Source: Skermanella mucosa (lineage in GTDB: Bacteria; Pseudomonadota; Alphaproteobacteria; Azospirillales; Azospirillaceae). From it: 64,000 nucleotides of DNA. Below the pieces are notes generated by a model. The model did not search any database and had not been told where the DNA came from. It saw only the letters and a list, made by a program, of their open reading frames with translations. The position numbers and the translations under genes were made by a program. Of this stretch, positions 1 to 42,946 are shown one piece after another (the stretch's first letter is position 1; every line of letters starts with the position of its first letter). The DNA lies in the NCBI RefSeq assembly GCF_016765655.2, contig NZ_CP086106.1:6284501-6348500 (forward strand), given 5' to 3'.

Positions 1-2578
1 CCTTGGACCCCACGGGCACGATGACCGCGTTCTTGACCATCTGCGCCTTCATCAAGCCCAGGATCTCGGTGCGGAAATCCTCGCGCCGGTCGGACCAGCG
101 GATGCCGCCGCGCGCGACCTTGCCGCCGCGCAGATGGATCGCCTCGACCCGCGGGCTGTAGACCCAGACCTCCACCATGGGGCGGGGCAGGGGCAGCTCG
201 TCCACGCCCCGGCTGTCCAGCTTCATGGACAGGTAGGGCTTGACCCCGCCGTCCTCGGCCTTCTGGAAATAATTGGTCCGCAGGGTGGAGCGCACGAGGT
301 TGAGGAACCGGCGCAGGATGCGGTCCTCGTCCAGGTTGGCGACCTCGTCCAGCGCGTGGTCGATCTCCACCAGCAGCCCGTTGACCGCGACCTGCGCCTC
401 GTCGGCGCCGCCCGGCGTCGCCCGCCGGTCCGGGTCGTGCAGGGTCTGGAACAGCCGGACGATCAGCCGCGTGATGGCGGCGTGGTCGGCCAGCGTGTCC
501 TCCATGTAGTCCTGGCTGAACTGGAAGCGGATCTGGCGCAAATATTTGGCGTAGGCCCGCAGCATGGTGATGTCGCGCCAGCCCAGCCCGGCGCGGATCA
601 CCAGCCGGTTGAAGCCGTCGTCCTCCATCCGGCCTTCCCAGACCCGCAGGAACGCGTCCTGGAACGCCTGCCGCACGCGGCCCAGGTCCACGGCGACGCC
701 GGCCCGGCTGGTCATGGCGAAGTCGTGGATCCAGACCGGCTCGATCCGGCCGGGGATCGTCACCTCGAACGGCCCGCCCTCCGAGATCACCTTGACGCCC
801 ATGTGCTCCAGCATGGGCAGGATGTCGGACAATGCCACCTGCCCGCTGTCATGGTAGAGCTTCAGGTAAAGCTCGGTCTCGCCGGCCTCGATCGGCCGGT
901 AGAGGTTCAGGCCCAGGCGCCCGGTATGGAGCACCTCCTCGATCCGCTCGATGTCGTAGACGGCCAGTTCGGCCCCGAAACGATCCCGGTATCCCACGTC
1001 GAAGGAGGTGGAATAGCGCCGGTGCAGGCGCAGCCCCTCCTCCTCGCCGCGGGCCTCGACCAGGGCGTCCTGCAAGCGGTCGGGCCACGCGCGGCTCGCC
1101 TCGATCAGCCGCTCCTCGATCTCCCCGGCATCGTAATCGGGAATGCCGCCGGGCTTCGTTTCGATGACGAACTGGACCCGCGCCAGCACGCTCTCGGCCA
1201 GCTGCGTGAAGAAGGCGGAGCAGGTGCCGTTGAAGGCGCGTTCCAGGATCGCCTGGATGCGCCGGCGCAGGTCGGTGTCGTAGCGGTCGCGCGGGACATA
1301 GACCAGGCAGGTCATGAAGCGCTCGAACGGGTCGCGGCGGATGAACAGGGCGGTGCGCTGGCGCTCCTGCAGGTGAAGGACGCCGATCGCGATCTCGTAC
1401 AGCTCGTTGTCGGTGATCTGGAACAGCTCGTCCCGGGGGAAGTTCTCCAGGATGTGGGTCAGCGCCTTGCCGTCGTGGCTGCGCGGATCGAACCCGGCGC
1501 GCTCCAGCACCCGGGCCACCTTGTTGCGCAGGAACGGGATGTCGCGGGCGCTGGCGCTGTAGGCGGCCGACGTGAACAGCCCCACGAACAGGTGCTCGCC
1601 GACCACCTTCCCGTCGTCGCCATAGGCCTTGATGAAGATGCTGTCCATCAGGGCCGGGCGGTGGACGGTCGCGCGCCGGTTCGACTTGGTCACCAGCAGC
1701 AGGCGCGGCTGGCGCAGGAACTGCTGGGCGTCGGGCGGCAGGGAGGCGAAGTTGCGCAGCCCGTCGAACACCCGGACGTCGTCGTCGCGCAGGATGCCCA
1801 GCCCCTCGCCGGCGACCGGGGTCAGCCGGGCCTCGTCGCCCTCGCCCTCGAACCGGTAGCGCCGGTAGCCCAGGAAGGTGAAATTGTCGTCGTTCAGCCA
1901 GTGCAGGAAGTCGCGCGCCTCGGCCAGCTCGCCCTCGGGCAGCGCGTCGGGCGTCCGGTCGACGCCGTCGATGATGCGCCGCATGGGCTCGTGCATGGCC
2001 TTCCAGTCCTCGACCGCGGCGCGCACGTCGGCCAGCACCTTGTCGATCCCCTGGGCGATTCTCTCCAGGAACTGGGGATCGGTCTGCTCGTCCACCTCGA
2101 TATGCATGAAGGATTCGGGCACGGCCTCGGCTGGCGCCGCCTGCGGCTCGTACAGGTCGGTCAGGCGGCCCGACGCGTCGCGGCGCACCCGCACCACGGG
2201 GTGGATCACCAGATGGACGGTCAGGCCCTGGCGGTTCAGCTCCGCCGTGACCGAATCGACCAGGAACGGCATGTCGTCGTTGATGATCTCGACCACGGTA
2301 TGGCCGGACTGCCAGCCATGCTCGTCGAGCTGCGGGTGATAGGCCCGGATCCGGGCGGTCCGCTCCTGCCGCTGGGCGGCGAACTGCCAGATCGACAGCG
2401 CCGCGCTGTAGAGCTGGTCGGGGCTGGATTCCAGCAAGTCGTCGGGAGGCACGTTGGCATAGAACTGGCGGACGAACCGTTCGGCCATGTCGGCCCGGTC
2501 GCGGTTCAGACGGTCGCGAACGCGGCTGACGATCTGCTCCGTCAGCTCGCCCTTAAGTTGTTCGGCCTTGAGGGCCAT
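1..2578 (-). CDS. NAD-specific glutamate dehydrogenase, large (~180 kDa) type, 5' part only
   Basis: Oxidatively deaminates glutamate to 2-oxoglutarate and ammonium with NAD+ in the cytoplasm. The visible 859 codons start at an ATG (MALKAEQLKGEL) and run off the left edge without a stop; the family is about 1600 residues long, so roughly half is present. Near the window edge the translation carries the conserved Bac_GDH stretch ARGGIRWSDRREDFR followed by KAQMVKNAVIVPVGSKG, which belongs to the catalytic core. The N-terminal half has the long regulatory region typical of this class and not found in the ~450-residue enzymes. It stands alone on the minus strand, about 130 bp downstream of ccmB. 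Family assignment is very secure. Confidence 0.95.
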   Translation of the reverse strand, partial: MALKAEQLKGELTEQIVSRVRDRLNRDRADMAERFVRQFYANVPPDDLLESSPDQLYSAALSIWQFAAQRQERTARIRAYHPQLDEHGWQSGHTVVEIINDDMPFLVDSVTAELNRQGLTVHLVIHPVVRVRRDASGRLTDLYEPQAAPAEAVPESFMHIEVDEQTDPQFLERIAQGIDKVLADVRAAVEDWKAMHEPMRRIIDGVDRTPDALPEGELAEARDFLHWLNDDNFTFLGYRRYRFEGEGDEARLTPVAGEGLGILRDDDVRVFDGLRNFASLPPDAQQFLRQPRLLLVTKSNRRATVHRPALMDSIFIKAYGDDGKVVGEHLFVGLFTSAAYSASARDIPFLRNKVARVLERAGFDPRSHDGKALTHILENFPRDELFQITDNELYEIAIGVLHLQERQRTALFIRRDPFERFMTCLVYVPRDRYDTDLRRRIQAILERAFNGTCSAFFTQLAESVLARVQFVIETKPGGIPDYDAGEIEERLIEASRAWPDRLQDALVEARGEEEGLRLHRRYSTSFDVGYRDRFGAELAVYDIERIEEVLHTGRLGLNLYRPIEAGETELYLKLYHDSGQVALSDILPMLEHMGVKVISEGGPFEVTIPGRIEPVWIHDFAMTSRAGVAVDLGRVRQAFQDAFLRVWEGRMEDDGFNRLVIRAGLGWRDITMLRAYAKYLRQIRFQFSQDYMEDTLADHAAITRLIVRLFQTLHDPDRRATPGGADEAQVAVNGLLVEIDHALDEVANLDEDRILRRFLNLVRSTLRTNYFQKAEDGGVKPYLSMKLDSRGVDELPLPRPMVEVWVYSPRVEAIHLRGGKVARGGIRWSDRREDFRTEILGLMKAQMVKNAVIVPVGSK

Positions 2579-2709
2579 GCCTGCCTCCCGTAATGCGGTC
2601 CGCTTCGGCGGTTTTCACCGCTTCTGTTCGGACCCGAGTGTAGCAGGTGAACATGGGTCCGTGGGGGAAGGTTGCGTGACGGGCCTATGACCTTCCGGCC
2701 GGACCTGCT

Positions 2710-3375
2710 CTACTCGATCGCCTGGCGCAGCGCCGCGGCTCCGGCCCAGGGTGCCAGCGGCAGGGCCGCGACCAGCAGTCCGCCCAGCAGCAGCAGGTGC
2801 GGCCGCGCGGTGAAGCCGGACAGGGACGCGTCGATCGCGCCGGCCCCGAAGATCAGCACGGGGATGTAGAGCGGCAGGATCAGCAGCGACAGCAGCACGC
2901 CGCCGCGCCGGGCGCCCAGGGTCAGGGCGGCGCCGATCGCCCCGATCAGGCTCAGCGTCGGCGTGCCGATCAGCAGCGTCGCGACCAGCACGGGAAAGCC
3001 CGCCGGCTCCATGTTCAGCAGCAGCGCCAGCAGCGGGGCCGCTACGATCAGCGGCAGGCCGGTGACCAGCCAGTGCGCCAGCACCTTGGCGAACACCACC
3101 GCCTCCAGCGGCAGGCTGGACAGGGTCAGCAGCTCCAGGCTGCCGTCCTCGTAGTCGTTCTGGAACAGCCGCTCCAGCGACAGCAGCGAGGCCAGCAGCG
3201 CCGCCACCCAGATCACCCCCGCGGCGATGCGGGCCAGGATGTTCGGCTCCGGCCCGACGCCGAACGGGAACAGCACGACGCACAGCACGAAGAACATCAC
3301 CGCGACCGTGGCGTCCGACCCCTGCCGCAGCGCCAGCCGCAGGTCGCGCGACACCAGCTTGAGGAAGCGGTTCAT
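2710..3375 (-). CDS. ccmB: Heme exporter protein CcmB (cytochrome c maturation)
   Basis: Membrane subunit of the CcmAB ABC transporter, which releases holo-CcmE during c-type cytochrome biogenesis at the cytoplasmic membrane. The 221-residue product has the usual CcmB length and about six hydrophobic segments. It begins MNRFLKLVSRDLRLALRQG and contains FQNDYEDGSLELL, which matches the family. The open frame extends further upstream, but the ATG at 3375 overlaps the stop of ccmA by four bases (ATGA), so translational coupling supports this start. No ccmC or other ccm gene follows; NAD-GDH is next, so the rest of the maturation system must lie elsewhere. Confidence 0.93.
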   Translation of the reverse strand: MNRFLKLVSRDLRLALRQGSDATVAVMFFVLCVVLFPFGVGPEPNILARIAAGVIWVAALLASLLSLERLFQNDYEDGSLELLTLSSLPLEAVVFAKVLAHWLVTGLPLIVAAPLLALLLNMEPAGFPVLVATLLIGTPTLSLIGAIGAALTLGARRGGVLLSLLILPLYIPVLIFGAGAIDASLSGFTARPHLLLLGGLLVAALPLAPWAGAAALRQAIE

Positions 3376-40065: not shown

Positions 40066-40369
40066 GCTTGGCGAGGCTACCGGTATGAACTTAAGGAATC
40101 CACAAGCTCGACCGAAGACTTGGCGGCCGTCAAGTCACGAATCCTTAACAGATTGCTTTCAATACTAACGTATGTACCCCGTGCTGACCAGCCGAATTAC
40201 CGGTATCTTAGAATCGGCTACTTTATCCGACATCGCAAAAGAACGGTTCAGTATGCCTCAGGGTTGTATGAATGCTTGATTGCACGGCATTTTATGAATC
40301 ATAGTCGTGCCGATACGGCGGATCTGCTGTGGCGGTGCTTTACTTAGATGTCATTCAGGGGAGTTGATA
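40066..40369. other. 304-bp divergent intergenic region, no gene seen
   Basis: Lies between the PAS gene (minus) and the Amt-chemoreceptor fusion (plus). It is lower in GC than its neighbours. A reading frame is open on the plus strand but has no recognisable content. I found no convincing sigma-54 element, even though the downstream gene concerns ammonium. GGGGAG at 40358-40363 is the ribosome-binding site of the fusion gene. Confidence 0.55.
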
Positions 40370-42946
40370 ATGCGATCAGCGACAATTCACGCTCCTTGCC
40401 CCATCACCCATTCAAACCATTCTGTTCATGTTTCCCGCCGCTCGTCACGGCCCGTATTCCGGCGAACTGCGGCCGTCCTGCTTGCGGCCCTGTCCTCATC
40501 GGCCCTTCAGGCCGGTCCCGCCCTGGCCCAGGCGGCCGACCCGGCCGGCGACCTGGCGGCCCGGATCGCCGCTGTGGAGACCTTCCAGACCAACCTCAAC
40601 TATGTCTGGGTCATGGCGGCCGCGGCCCTGGTCATGCTGATGCAGGTCGGGTTCCTGCTGCTCGAAGCCGGGCTGGTGCGCTCGAAGAACTCGGTCAACG
40701 TCGCCCAGAAGAACCTGGTGGATTTCGTCCTGGCCGTGGGAATCTTCGGGATGGTCGGCTTCGCCGTCATGTTCGGCGCCGACCAGGCCGGCCTGGTCGG
40801 CTGGAGTACCGGCATGATGCTGTTCAACCACGCCAGCGACTGGGACTACGCCTTCTTCATCTTCCAGCTCGTGTTCTGCGGCACCGCCGCCACCATCGTG
40901 TCCGGCGCCGTGGCGGAGCGGATGCGGTTCGGCAGCTATCTCTGGGCGACGGTCTTCGTCTCGGCGGTCATATATCCGGTGTTCGGCCACTGGGCCTGGG
41001 GCAACCTGCTGGACACGGGCAACCACGCCTTCCTGGGCAGCCAGGGCTTCATCGACTTCGCCGGCTCGACCGTGGTGCATTCGATCGGCGGCTGGGTGGC
41101 GCTGGCCGCGGTGATCGTGATGGGACCGCGAATCGGCCGGTTCGACCAGCATGGCCGGCCGGTCAAGATCCACGGGCACAGCCCGGTGCTGGCGACTTCC
41201 GGCGCGCTGATCCTGTGGGTCGGCTGGATCGGCTTCAACGGCGGCTCGACCCTGGCCGGCACGCCGCAATTCGCCCACATCGTGTTCAACACCATCGTGT
41301 CCGGCGCCATGGGCGGCCTGTCCGGCATGTTCGCCGGACGGATGGTCGACCACAACTGGCGGGTCGACCGGGTGATCAACGGCGTGCTCGGCGGGCTGGT
41401 CGGCATCACCGCGGGGTGCGACGCGGTGACCTCCGGCGGGGCCGTCTTCATCGGGCTTTCGAGCGGACTGGTCGTCCTGGCGGCGGGCGAGCTGCTGGAG
41501 CGGGTGTTCAAGCTGGACGATGCCGTCGGCGCGGTCCCGGTCCATGGCGTCTGCGGCGCCTGGGGGACCCTGATGACGGCGTTCTTCGCCACCGCCGACA
41601 AGCTCCCGGCGGGCGACGTCCTGTCCCAGCTCCTGATCCAGGCGCAGGGGGTGGCGGTCGCCTTCGCGTGGGGATTCGGCGTCTCGTACCTGTTCTTCAG
41701 GCTGCTCAACAGCAACATCGCCGGCGGCATGAGGGTCTCGCGGGAGGAGGAGCTGCTGGGCCTGAACGAGGCGGAGCACGGCGCCACGCTGGGCACCGGG
41801 CAGCTGCTCAACAACATGCTCGCGCTGTCGCGCGGCGGCGCCGACCTGAAGGTGCGGCTGGAGGAGGGCCGCGGCGACGAGTCGTCGGAGCTGGCCTACG
41901 CCTACAACCGGCTGATCGACAATATCGAGGCGATCGTCGGCGGCGTCGCCGACGGGGCGCGCGACCTGTCGCGGGCGGCCGACGACCTGATGGCGCTGTC
42001 CTCCGACCTGGCCGCCCAGGCGCATGACGCCACCGCGAAGGCGGTGTCGGTGTCGCGTTCGACCGGGACCATGGCCGAGGACATGGTCAGGATCACCGGC
42101 GCCGTCAGCGGCGTGCGGGCCAACGCCGACAGCATCGACCGCAGCGCCGCCAGCATGTCCGCCCATATCGGGGCGGCCGCCGCCGACACCCGGCGGGTGA
42201 CCGAGCGGATCGCCTCGATCGAGACCGGGATGGCGGCGGCCCGGCAGGTGGTCGAACAGGCCATGGACCAGGCCGGCCGGGCATCCTCCACGGTCGACCA
42301 GCTGAGCGTCGCCGCCGGGGCGATCGGCGACGTCCTGCGCCTGATCCGCGAGATCGCCGGCCAGACCAACCTGCTGGCGCTCAACGCCACCATCGAGGCG
42401 GCCAGAGCCGGGGAGGCCGGCAAGGGCTTCGCCGTGGTGGCGCAGGAGGTCAAGAACCTCGCCGGCCAGACCGCCCGCGCGGTCGAGGACATCGAGGGCA
42501 AGGTCGGCGCGATCCAGGGCGAGGCGGGTGAGGCCGTGTCGGTGATCCGGACCATCACCGAGGTGGTCGGCACCCTGGACGAATCGGTCCGCTCGGTCTC
42601 GGCGGCGCTGGCCGAACAGGCCGACGCGGCCCAGCACATCGTCGAGAGCATGGGCAACGCCAGCGGCGAATCGTCCAACGTCGCCGGCTCGATCGGCGAG
42701 GTGGCGGAAGCCGCGCGCGGCGCCCTCGAGATCGCCGAGACCGCGGCGTCGGACAGCATCCGGGTGACCACGGAGGTCCAGGCGATGCGGGGCGCCGCGG
42801 AGGCGACCAACGTCCGGGCCGACCAGCTCGCGGTCACCGCCTCGGCGATCGGCGCCATCGCCCAGCGGCTGCGCGGACTGGTCGGGACCGTGGTGGCGGA
42901 ACCGGGTGCCGCCGCCCCGCCCGCCCTGGCCCACGCCGCGGAATAG
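40370..42946 (+). CDS. Ammonium transporter (Amt) fused to a methyl-accepting chemotaxis signalling domain
   Basis: An 858-residue membrane receptor. A signal sequence (about 30-55, [20 protein letters not shown]) precedes a full Amt/Mep/Rh domain (about 70-460) with roughly eleven helices. Conserved parts include [36 protein letters not shown], the twin pore histidines His237 (TVVHSIGGW) and His392 ([10 protein letters not shown]), and [12 protein letters not shown]. Then a HAMP-like segment (about 485-530, [16 protein letters not shown]) leads into a cytoplasmic chemoreceptor coiled coil with an intact tip near 660-700 ([35 protein letters not shown]). There is no C-terminal CheR/CheB pentapeptide and no adjacent glnK. 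It probably senses ammonium or its conduction and signals to CheA; flux sensing is inference. Confidence 0.95.

Follow-up and report, generated by a model that had tools for sequence, protein, structure and literature searches.

A probable ammonium chemoreceptor in Skermanella mucosa that joins a sensor-type Amt domain to a chemoreceptor signalling hairpin

Introduction

Two Amt proteins with solved structures combine the Amt fold with a signalling output and are the closest described relatives of the protein reported here. One is deposited as 8QJ3, 8QJ4 and 8QPF, which we take to be Sd-Amt1 of Shewanella denitrificans, an Amt-HAMP-diguanylate cyclase (Science Advances 2024). The other is Ks-Amt5 of Candidatus Kuenenia stuttgartiensis (PDB 6EU6), which, according to the accessible part of PMC5764959, binds ammonium but does not translocate it efficiently; the same part places its membrane site at Q24, E31, N47, D50, T51, T109 and T112, describes a pore obstructed by F27, Y30 and F34, and regards a trimeric core bearing histidine kinase modules as unprecedented. 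Ammonia is also sensed by a kinase outside the Amt family, GrtK (accessible part of PMC12918730).

No recognised description of a fusion between an Amt domain and the signalling part of a chemoreceptor (MCP) was found in the open full-text literature, a scope outside which most subscription papers fall. None appears in the accessible parts of PMC5764959, PMC3169532, PMC3180692, PMC2907700, PMC3543383 and PMC2628731, while ‘chemotaxis’ is absent from that of PMC10433425 and ‘ammoni’ from those of PMC8547431 and PMC1183210. A search of the open full-text literature for ammonium taxis or sensing together with ‘chemoreceptor’ found only two papers, both on the alga Chlamydomonas. We regard the protein as a known sensor module joined to an output with which it has not been found described. 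Ammonium is a main nitrogen source, and the Amt-MCP family is a direct bacterial candidate for ammonium chemoreception.

The gene lies in a 64,000-nucleotide stretch of the Skermanella mucosa genome, which as a whole is called the window here (positions without a prefix are counted in it, and the gene product is the window protein). From sequence comparison we judge, with a probability of roughly 0.77, that this product is a transmembrane ammonium chemoreceptor that binds its ligand with a sensor-type Amt.

Architecture of the fusion gene

A preliminary description, made from the window's letters alone, had reported one continuous 858-codon frame joining a signal peptide, a complete Amt domain with both pore histidines, a HAMP-like linker and an intact chemoreceptor tip. 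That observation is confirmed (Table 1). The frame is open throughout, with a GTG at 40307 as a possible alternative to the ATG start, and PF00909 (Ammonium_transp) is matched almost from end to end. The tip is supported by the PF00015 (MCPsignal) match, at residues 634-782 with E 4.2e-30, and by the invariant residues described below; the protein scores far under the cut-offs of the NCBIfam chemoreceptor models. The HAMP match of the window protein is below threshold (PF00672, residues 481-520, E 0.0074, 17.0 bits, gathering score 25). Among the Amt-MCP proteins compared, 12 of 16 match HAMP at E ≤ 0.1 (best 7.7e-07), and ‘HAMP-like’ is therefore a fair name for the linker. The hydrophobic stretch near the N-terminus fits a signal peptide, but we call this feature probable only.

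Table 1. Coordinates of the fusion gene and its features in the window.
Feature	Residues	Window position	Strand	Basis
Amt-HAMP-MCP fusion gene	858 aa	40370-42946	+	open frame plus stop
Probable ribosome-binding site AGGGGAG		40357-40363	+	read by eye; 6 nt before ATG
Probable signal peptide	1-54	40370-40531	+	inferred from hydrophobic stretch 34-52, then ALAQA
Amt domain	79-473	40604-41788	+	PF00909 (E 1.3e-106, profile positions 1-397 of 399); TIGR00836 ‘ammonium transporter’ (NCBIfam, fusion protein 369.7 bits, cut-off 343.3)
Aligned two-ammonium site (Q92 E99 N115 D118 F119 T175 S178)	92-178	40643-40903	+	alignment with 6eu6
Pore histidine	His237	41078-41080	+	alignment
Pore histidine	His392	41543-41545	+	alignment
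Amt C-terminal tail and HAMP-like linker	466-520	41765-41929	+	weak PF00672 match; N466-N513 = 47 aa
MCP coiled-coil hairpin, tip E682	521-841 (approximate ends)	41930-42892	+	PF00015, arm lengths, aligned chemoreceptor structures
Expected CheA/CheW-contact tip	655-712	42332-42505	+	alignment

Sixteen Amt-MCP proteins were gathered from the class of S. mucosa and from a second class in the same phylum, and every one matches both PF00909 and PF00015 (E ≤ 0.1). A one-off fusion is thereby ruled out. Both pore histidines are invariant across the 16 aligned proteins, and N672, E676, G681 and F687 are among the invariant columns of the tip, the part of chemoreceptors that contacts CheA and CheW. 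The preliminary description had named a frameshift or misassembly between the two halves as a finding that would speak against the fusion. The Azospirillum halopraeferens DSM 3675 protein is 70% identical, aligned over residues 25-858, and since this homologue from another genus spans both halves, a frameshift or misassembly there is excluded. DNA similarity between the A. halopraeferens locus and the window is limited to the gene itself. In DSM 3675 two contigs (L004 and L005) carry the same 10,502 bases around the gene, either as a recent, true duplication or as an assembly duplicate.

The strict methylation-site pattern occurs once in the window protein, at 745-754, and in the cytoplasmic part of two others among the 16; it is rare in the family. 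The adaptation pentapeptide had been noted as missing, and a pattern search for the W..F type in the last 40 residues found none in any of the 16. This is ordinary, since only about 10% of chemoreceptors carry one (accessible part of PMC7390727). Upstream of the gene a sigma-54 promoter was not found (best candidate 9 of 12 positions, equalled by 18% of base shuffles). Structure prediction from the window protein and P0006 alone was poor: it reached a mean pLDDT of 44 and was not used.

The Amt domain and its two-ammonium site

Compared with solved structures, the Amt part reaches 324 bits for 6eu6 (Ks-Amt5), 304 for 8qj3, 162 for 2b2f (presumably A. fulgidus Amt1) and 133 for 1xqe (presumably E. 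coli AmtB). In the alignment with Ks-Amt5, His237 and His392 correspond to the twin histidines, F169 and F289 to the Phe gate, whose conservation the preliminary description had proposed to survey, and W210 and S293 to the outer site. The membrane site of Ks-Amt5 maps to Q92, E99, N115, D118, F119, T175 and S178, so that six of the seven ligands are kept: Q92, E99, N115, D118 and T175 are identical, S178 replaces Thr (T112), and F119 stands where Ks-Amt5 has T51, a position that is Phe in 8qj3 as well. The plug residues of Ks-Amt5 are partly kept, in that F95 is retained but Tyr and Phe are replaced by L98 and L102. Because this bulky plug is only partly kept, the Amt part may still conduct.

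Every MCP-fused row (15, counting the window) reads QEND at the first four site positions, as do the 14 kinase- or cyclase-fused loci and the two solved sensors, Ks-Amt5 and 8qj3; the partial L033 was left out of this comparison. Among unfused Amts QEND occurs in two of 30 readable rows (32 rows in total), and a third unfused row, on a long branch, reads HEID. The unfused set is no census: of 80 Amt matches it draws on the 30 best-scoring loci, at most one per genome, of which two turned out to be fusions, and a few further loci were added. Both unfused loci with QEND adjoin a P-II gene (L037:2737-3072, confirmed by Pfam; L038:3014-3238, a 75-codon frame with E 1.2e-7), so the site residues do not prove sensing and may belong to transporters too. 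This argues that Ks-Amt5-type site residues mark a clade wider than the sensors, a real limit on the sensor claim.

Phylogeny of the fused Amt domains

In an Amt tree of 61 rows, rooted on the AmtB of the S. mucosa genome, all fused Amts form one clade (99/97) together with Ks-Amt5 and 8qj3. The MCP-fused Amts and a single cyclase fusion form a clade within it (96/91, or 98/96 without three long branches), and the unfused rows split off again in the second tree, calculated without the three long branches (L036, L044_400 and L016). An Amt fragment (L066) and a row with a missing N-terminus (L043) were left out of both trees, and the rows, found by searching with an Amt-MCP profile and with Pfam across the class, are not an even sample. 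The 14 kinase or cyclase fusions include nine scanned with Pfam (six with HisKA and HATPase_c, one with HATPase_c alone and two with GGDEF); the other five were placed by their tree position beside these. The cyclase fusion inside the MCP-fused clade is an Amt-PAS-GGDEF-EAL protein (L035, positions 1-3051, minus strand, genome G815). Its position suggests an exchange of output domains, and a strict grouping of the MCP fusions without it is not rejected (p-AU 0.065). The MCP tails taken alone cannot decide between one origin and several: in a tree of 124 hairpin columns, set against 20 of the genome's 51 MCP matches, a single origin has p-AU 0.42, and there are many long branches.

The tree bears on the strongest rival to the sensor reading, in which the protein is a true transceptor, whose Amt part would carry ammonium into the cell and also generate a signal tied to the transport cycle. 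The pore would allow this, with twin histidines, Phe gate and the W/S pair all intact and two of the three plug residues smaller than in Ks-Amt5, and unfused Amts with QEND and an adjoining P-II gene exist. However, the Amt part groups with Ks-Amt5, for which the accessible part of PMC5764959 reports binding but no efficient translocation, and the genome has a canonical unfused AmtB elsewhere. We regard a transceptor as a serious possibility that falls short of even odds. The preliminary description had offered direct coupling of Amt to the chemotaxis tip as a candidate transceptor; the comparison backs a sensor-type Amt with a chemotaxis output, but does not establish the transceptor part.

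Spacing of the joint and the coiled coil

The preliminary description had also proposed comparing linker lengths among homologues, and the joint between Amt and HAMP turned out to be near-constant. In 27 of the 30 fusions measured, whichever output they carry, the Asn of the GLN motif and the Asn of the HAMP-like motif are 46-47 residues apart. All nine MCP fusions from the class of S. mucosa have 47; the seven from the other class have 46 (four) or 51-53 (three), and the kinase and cyclase fusions have 46 in 13 of 14 cases and 47 in the remaining one.

Beyond the joint, the arm from the HAMP Asn to the tip measures 169 aa in seven of nine own-class members and 148 aa in all seven from the other class, a gap of exactly three heptads. 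Where this heptad rule holds, the coiled coil is, as judged from motif spacing, in register with the HAMP-like part, like that of working receptors. Whole-heptad spacing was also considered as a rule for all members and fails, as the arms of L031 (153 aa) and L036 (185 aa) do not differ from 169 by whole heptads. Tsr is a 36-heptad receptor; its arm by the same motif is 134 aa, five heptads under the window protein (counted by hand in the alignment), and by this Tsr-based count the window receptor would be near 46 heptads, with no class assigned.

Genome context

Among the six neighbouring frames scanned with Pfam (upstream DUF1848 and PAS_5; downstream a weak FkbM-like match, carbonic anhydrase, DUF2254 and a LigB-type match) there is no chemotaxis or nitrogen-control family. 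The earlier remark that no GlnK lies alongside the gene also stood: phmmer found no P-II gene in the 64 kb window (one P-II query, E ≤ 1, frames ≥ 60 aa). Over the compared loci, P-II lies beside the Amt in none of 28 fused loci (14 MCP-fused, 14 kinase- or cyclase-fused) versus 16 of 31 unfused ones, an absence close by, given that flanks were mostly near 1.5 kb. For S. mucosa this contrast is weak, because its own unfused AmtB (L001) likewise has no P-II within its flanks. The absence of GlnK beside the fusion gene tells little for the same reason, and also because glnK is not downstream of amtB in A. brasilense Sp245 and Azospirillum sp. B510 (accessible part of PMC3169532).

The S. mucosa genome (G000) has three Amt matches: the unfused AmtB of 480 aa, an Amt-histidine kinase of 756 aa and the Amt-MCP protein. 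The kinase (L002, G000:C1:2062288-2063697, minus strand) carries HisKA and HATPase_c, and similar Amts lie in frames of 744-758 codons in three of the four other genomes of the genus (outputs scanned for L002 and L011). This second fusion in the same genome, the recurrence of the family and the near-constant joint are features beyond the view from a single sequence.

A CheA-type match (PF02895) is present in all 13 Amt-MCP genomes tested (weakest in G803, E 1.1e-6) versus seven of 14 controls. The window genome has three such matches and 51 MCP matches, numbers that would accommodate a second rival, namely an output other than swimming through another CheA pathway, for example one controlling aggregation or second messengers. 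No such pathway is pointed to, and the six scanned neighbours hold no chemotaxis family; we consider this reading unlikely.

Distribution and a broken copy in a sister genome

The distribution of the Amt-MCP gene is patchy. A full-length match was found in one of five genomes of the genus, the window's own (E ≤ 1e-60), and in two of 82 genomes of the family including it, the other being G022, with a protein that has the same sequence as the A. halopraeferens one. At E 1e-150, four genomes in a class draw of 385 pass (the own genome and those with L030 plus the partial L033, L031 and L032), and four in a phylum draw of 398 (the own genome, L034, L036 and the Amt-PAS-GGDEF-EAL protein L035). In the order of G597, outside the class of S. 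mucosa, seven of 293 sampled genomes pass and all seven are Amt-MCP; in the orders of G204 and G116 one of three and one of nine pass, in both cases the starting genome. Among 72,556 plasmid records, three had a single region spanning 80% or more of the query, two from Tritonibacter mobilis and one from Phaeobacter inhibens. The thresholds in these searches were strict and the counts are lower bounds. Duplicate rows were dropped: the identical A. halopraeferens copy (L005), L017, L028 and the second Tritonibacter record (H2), as well as L003, L008, L018, L012, L019, L020, L021 and L029.

The P. inhibens gene is on pP88_b (NZ_CP010727.1; L014:3953-6418), a plasmid typed as conjugative, where it adjoins a recombinase and an IS481 transposase. 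Its product is labelled only ‘ammonium transporter’, which is likely an annotation problem. The candidate strains are A. halopraeferens DSM 3675, Phaeobacter inhibens P88 and Tritonibacter mobilis F1926.

The sister genome G002 holds a broken copy, in which the outer flanks and both gene ends are kept and the equivalent of 40603-42472 (about 1.87 kb) is missing; 181 bases stand in the gap (L013:1323-1503), with inverted-repeat character by eye, and most of the FkbM-like stretch downstream is gone as well. The Amt-MCP gene is thus dispensable in the genus. That the window copy too is decaying or neutral, as this break and the lack of a full-length match in three other genus members (E ≤ 1e-60) could hint, is very improbable, for its frame is open throughout and all 16 proteins have the same pore histidines and key tip residues.

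Proposed function

On the preferred reading of a sensor-type Amt driving a chemoreceptor, the gene probably lets the cell steer by ammonium; the ligand, the direction of the signal and the control of CheA are what we infer. Ammonium would enter from the periplasmic side and be held in the membrane-embedded site, and movement would pass to the cytoplasmic tail with its GLNxxEHG motif and from there into the HAMP-like relay. The relay would determine how the MCP hairpin packs and thereby how active the tip-bound CheA is. We think of the first and last of these steps by analogy with Ks-Amt5 and with chemoreceptors, respectively.

The most interesting point is structural: a channel fold built as a trimer would have to drive a receptor that works as a dimer. 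Amts form trimers, whereas receptors form dimers that cluster in groups of three. We propose a six-chain unit, with three receptor dimers under two Amt trimers, because it would satisfy both symmetries. More broadly, Amt and HAMP together may be an ammonium-sensing cassette that evolution has reused, keeping the joint near-constant, to drive chemoreceptors, kinases and cyclases alike; in its chemoreceptor form, two Amt trimers would sit on one trimer of receptor dimers and turn the threefold symmetry of the sensor into the twofold signalling of the receptor. This general scheme is tentative, and we would sooner bet against it than for it in its entirety.

Comparison with known systems

The nearest comparison within the genome is the Amt-histidine kinase L002, which belongs to the fused-Amt clade and has the same site letters as the window protein, with a tail-to-HAMP spacing of 46 rather than 47 aa, but differs in its HisKA and HATPase_c output. 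The Amt of 8QJ3 has the same seven site letters as the window protein, QENDFTS. That protein presumably also has a HAMP and a two-ammonium site, and a diguanylate cyclase output where the window protein has a chemoreceptor hairpin.

On the output side, 6S1K (which we take to be E. coli Tsr) and 6S18, an aromatic acid chemoreceptor, share the hairpin and the conserved tip with the window protein, and 6S18 also aligns through its HAMP-like part. Receptors of this type have a periplasmic ligand-binding domain where the window protein has its Amt, and the arm of the window protein is 35 aa (five heptads) longer than that of Tsr.

Ks-Amt5 resembles the window protein in having an N-terminal Amt as membrane ammonium sensor followed by a cytoplasmic output, with five of the seven site residues identical and Ser in the window protein for T112. 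According to the accessible part of PMC5764959 it differs in its histidine kinase output and in having no HAMP; its pore plug is fuller, and the window protein has F119 in place of T51.
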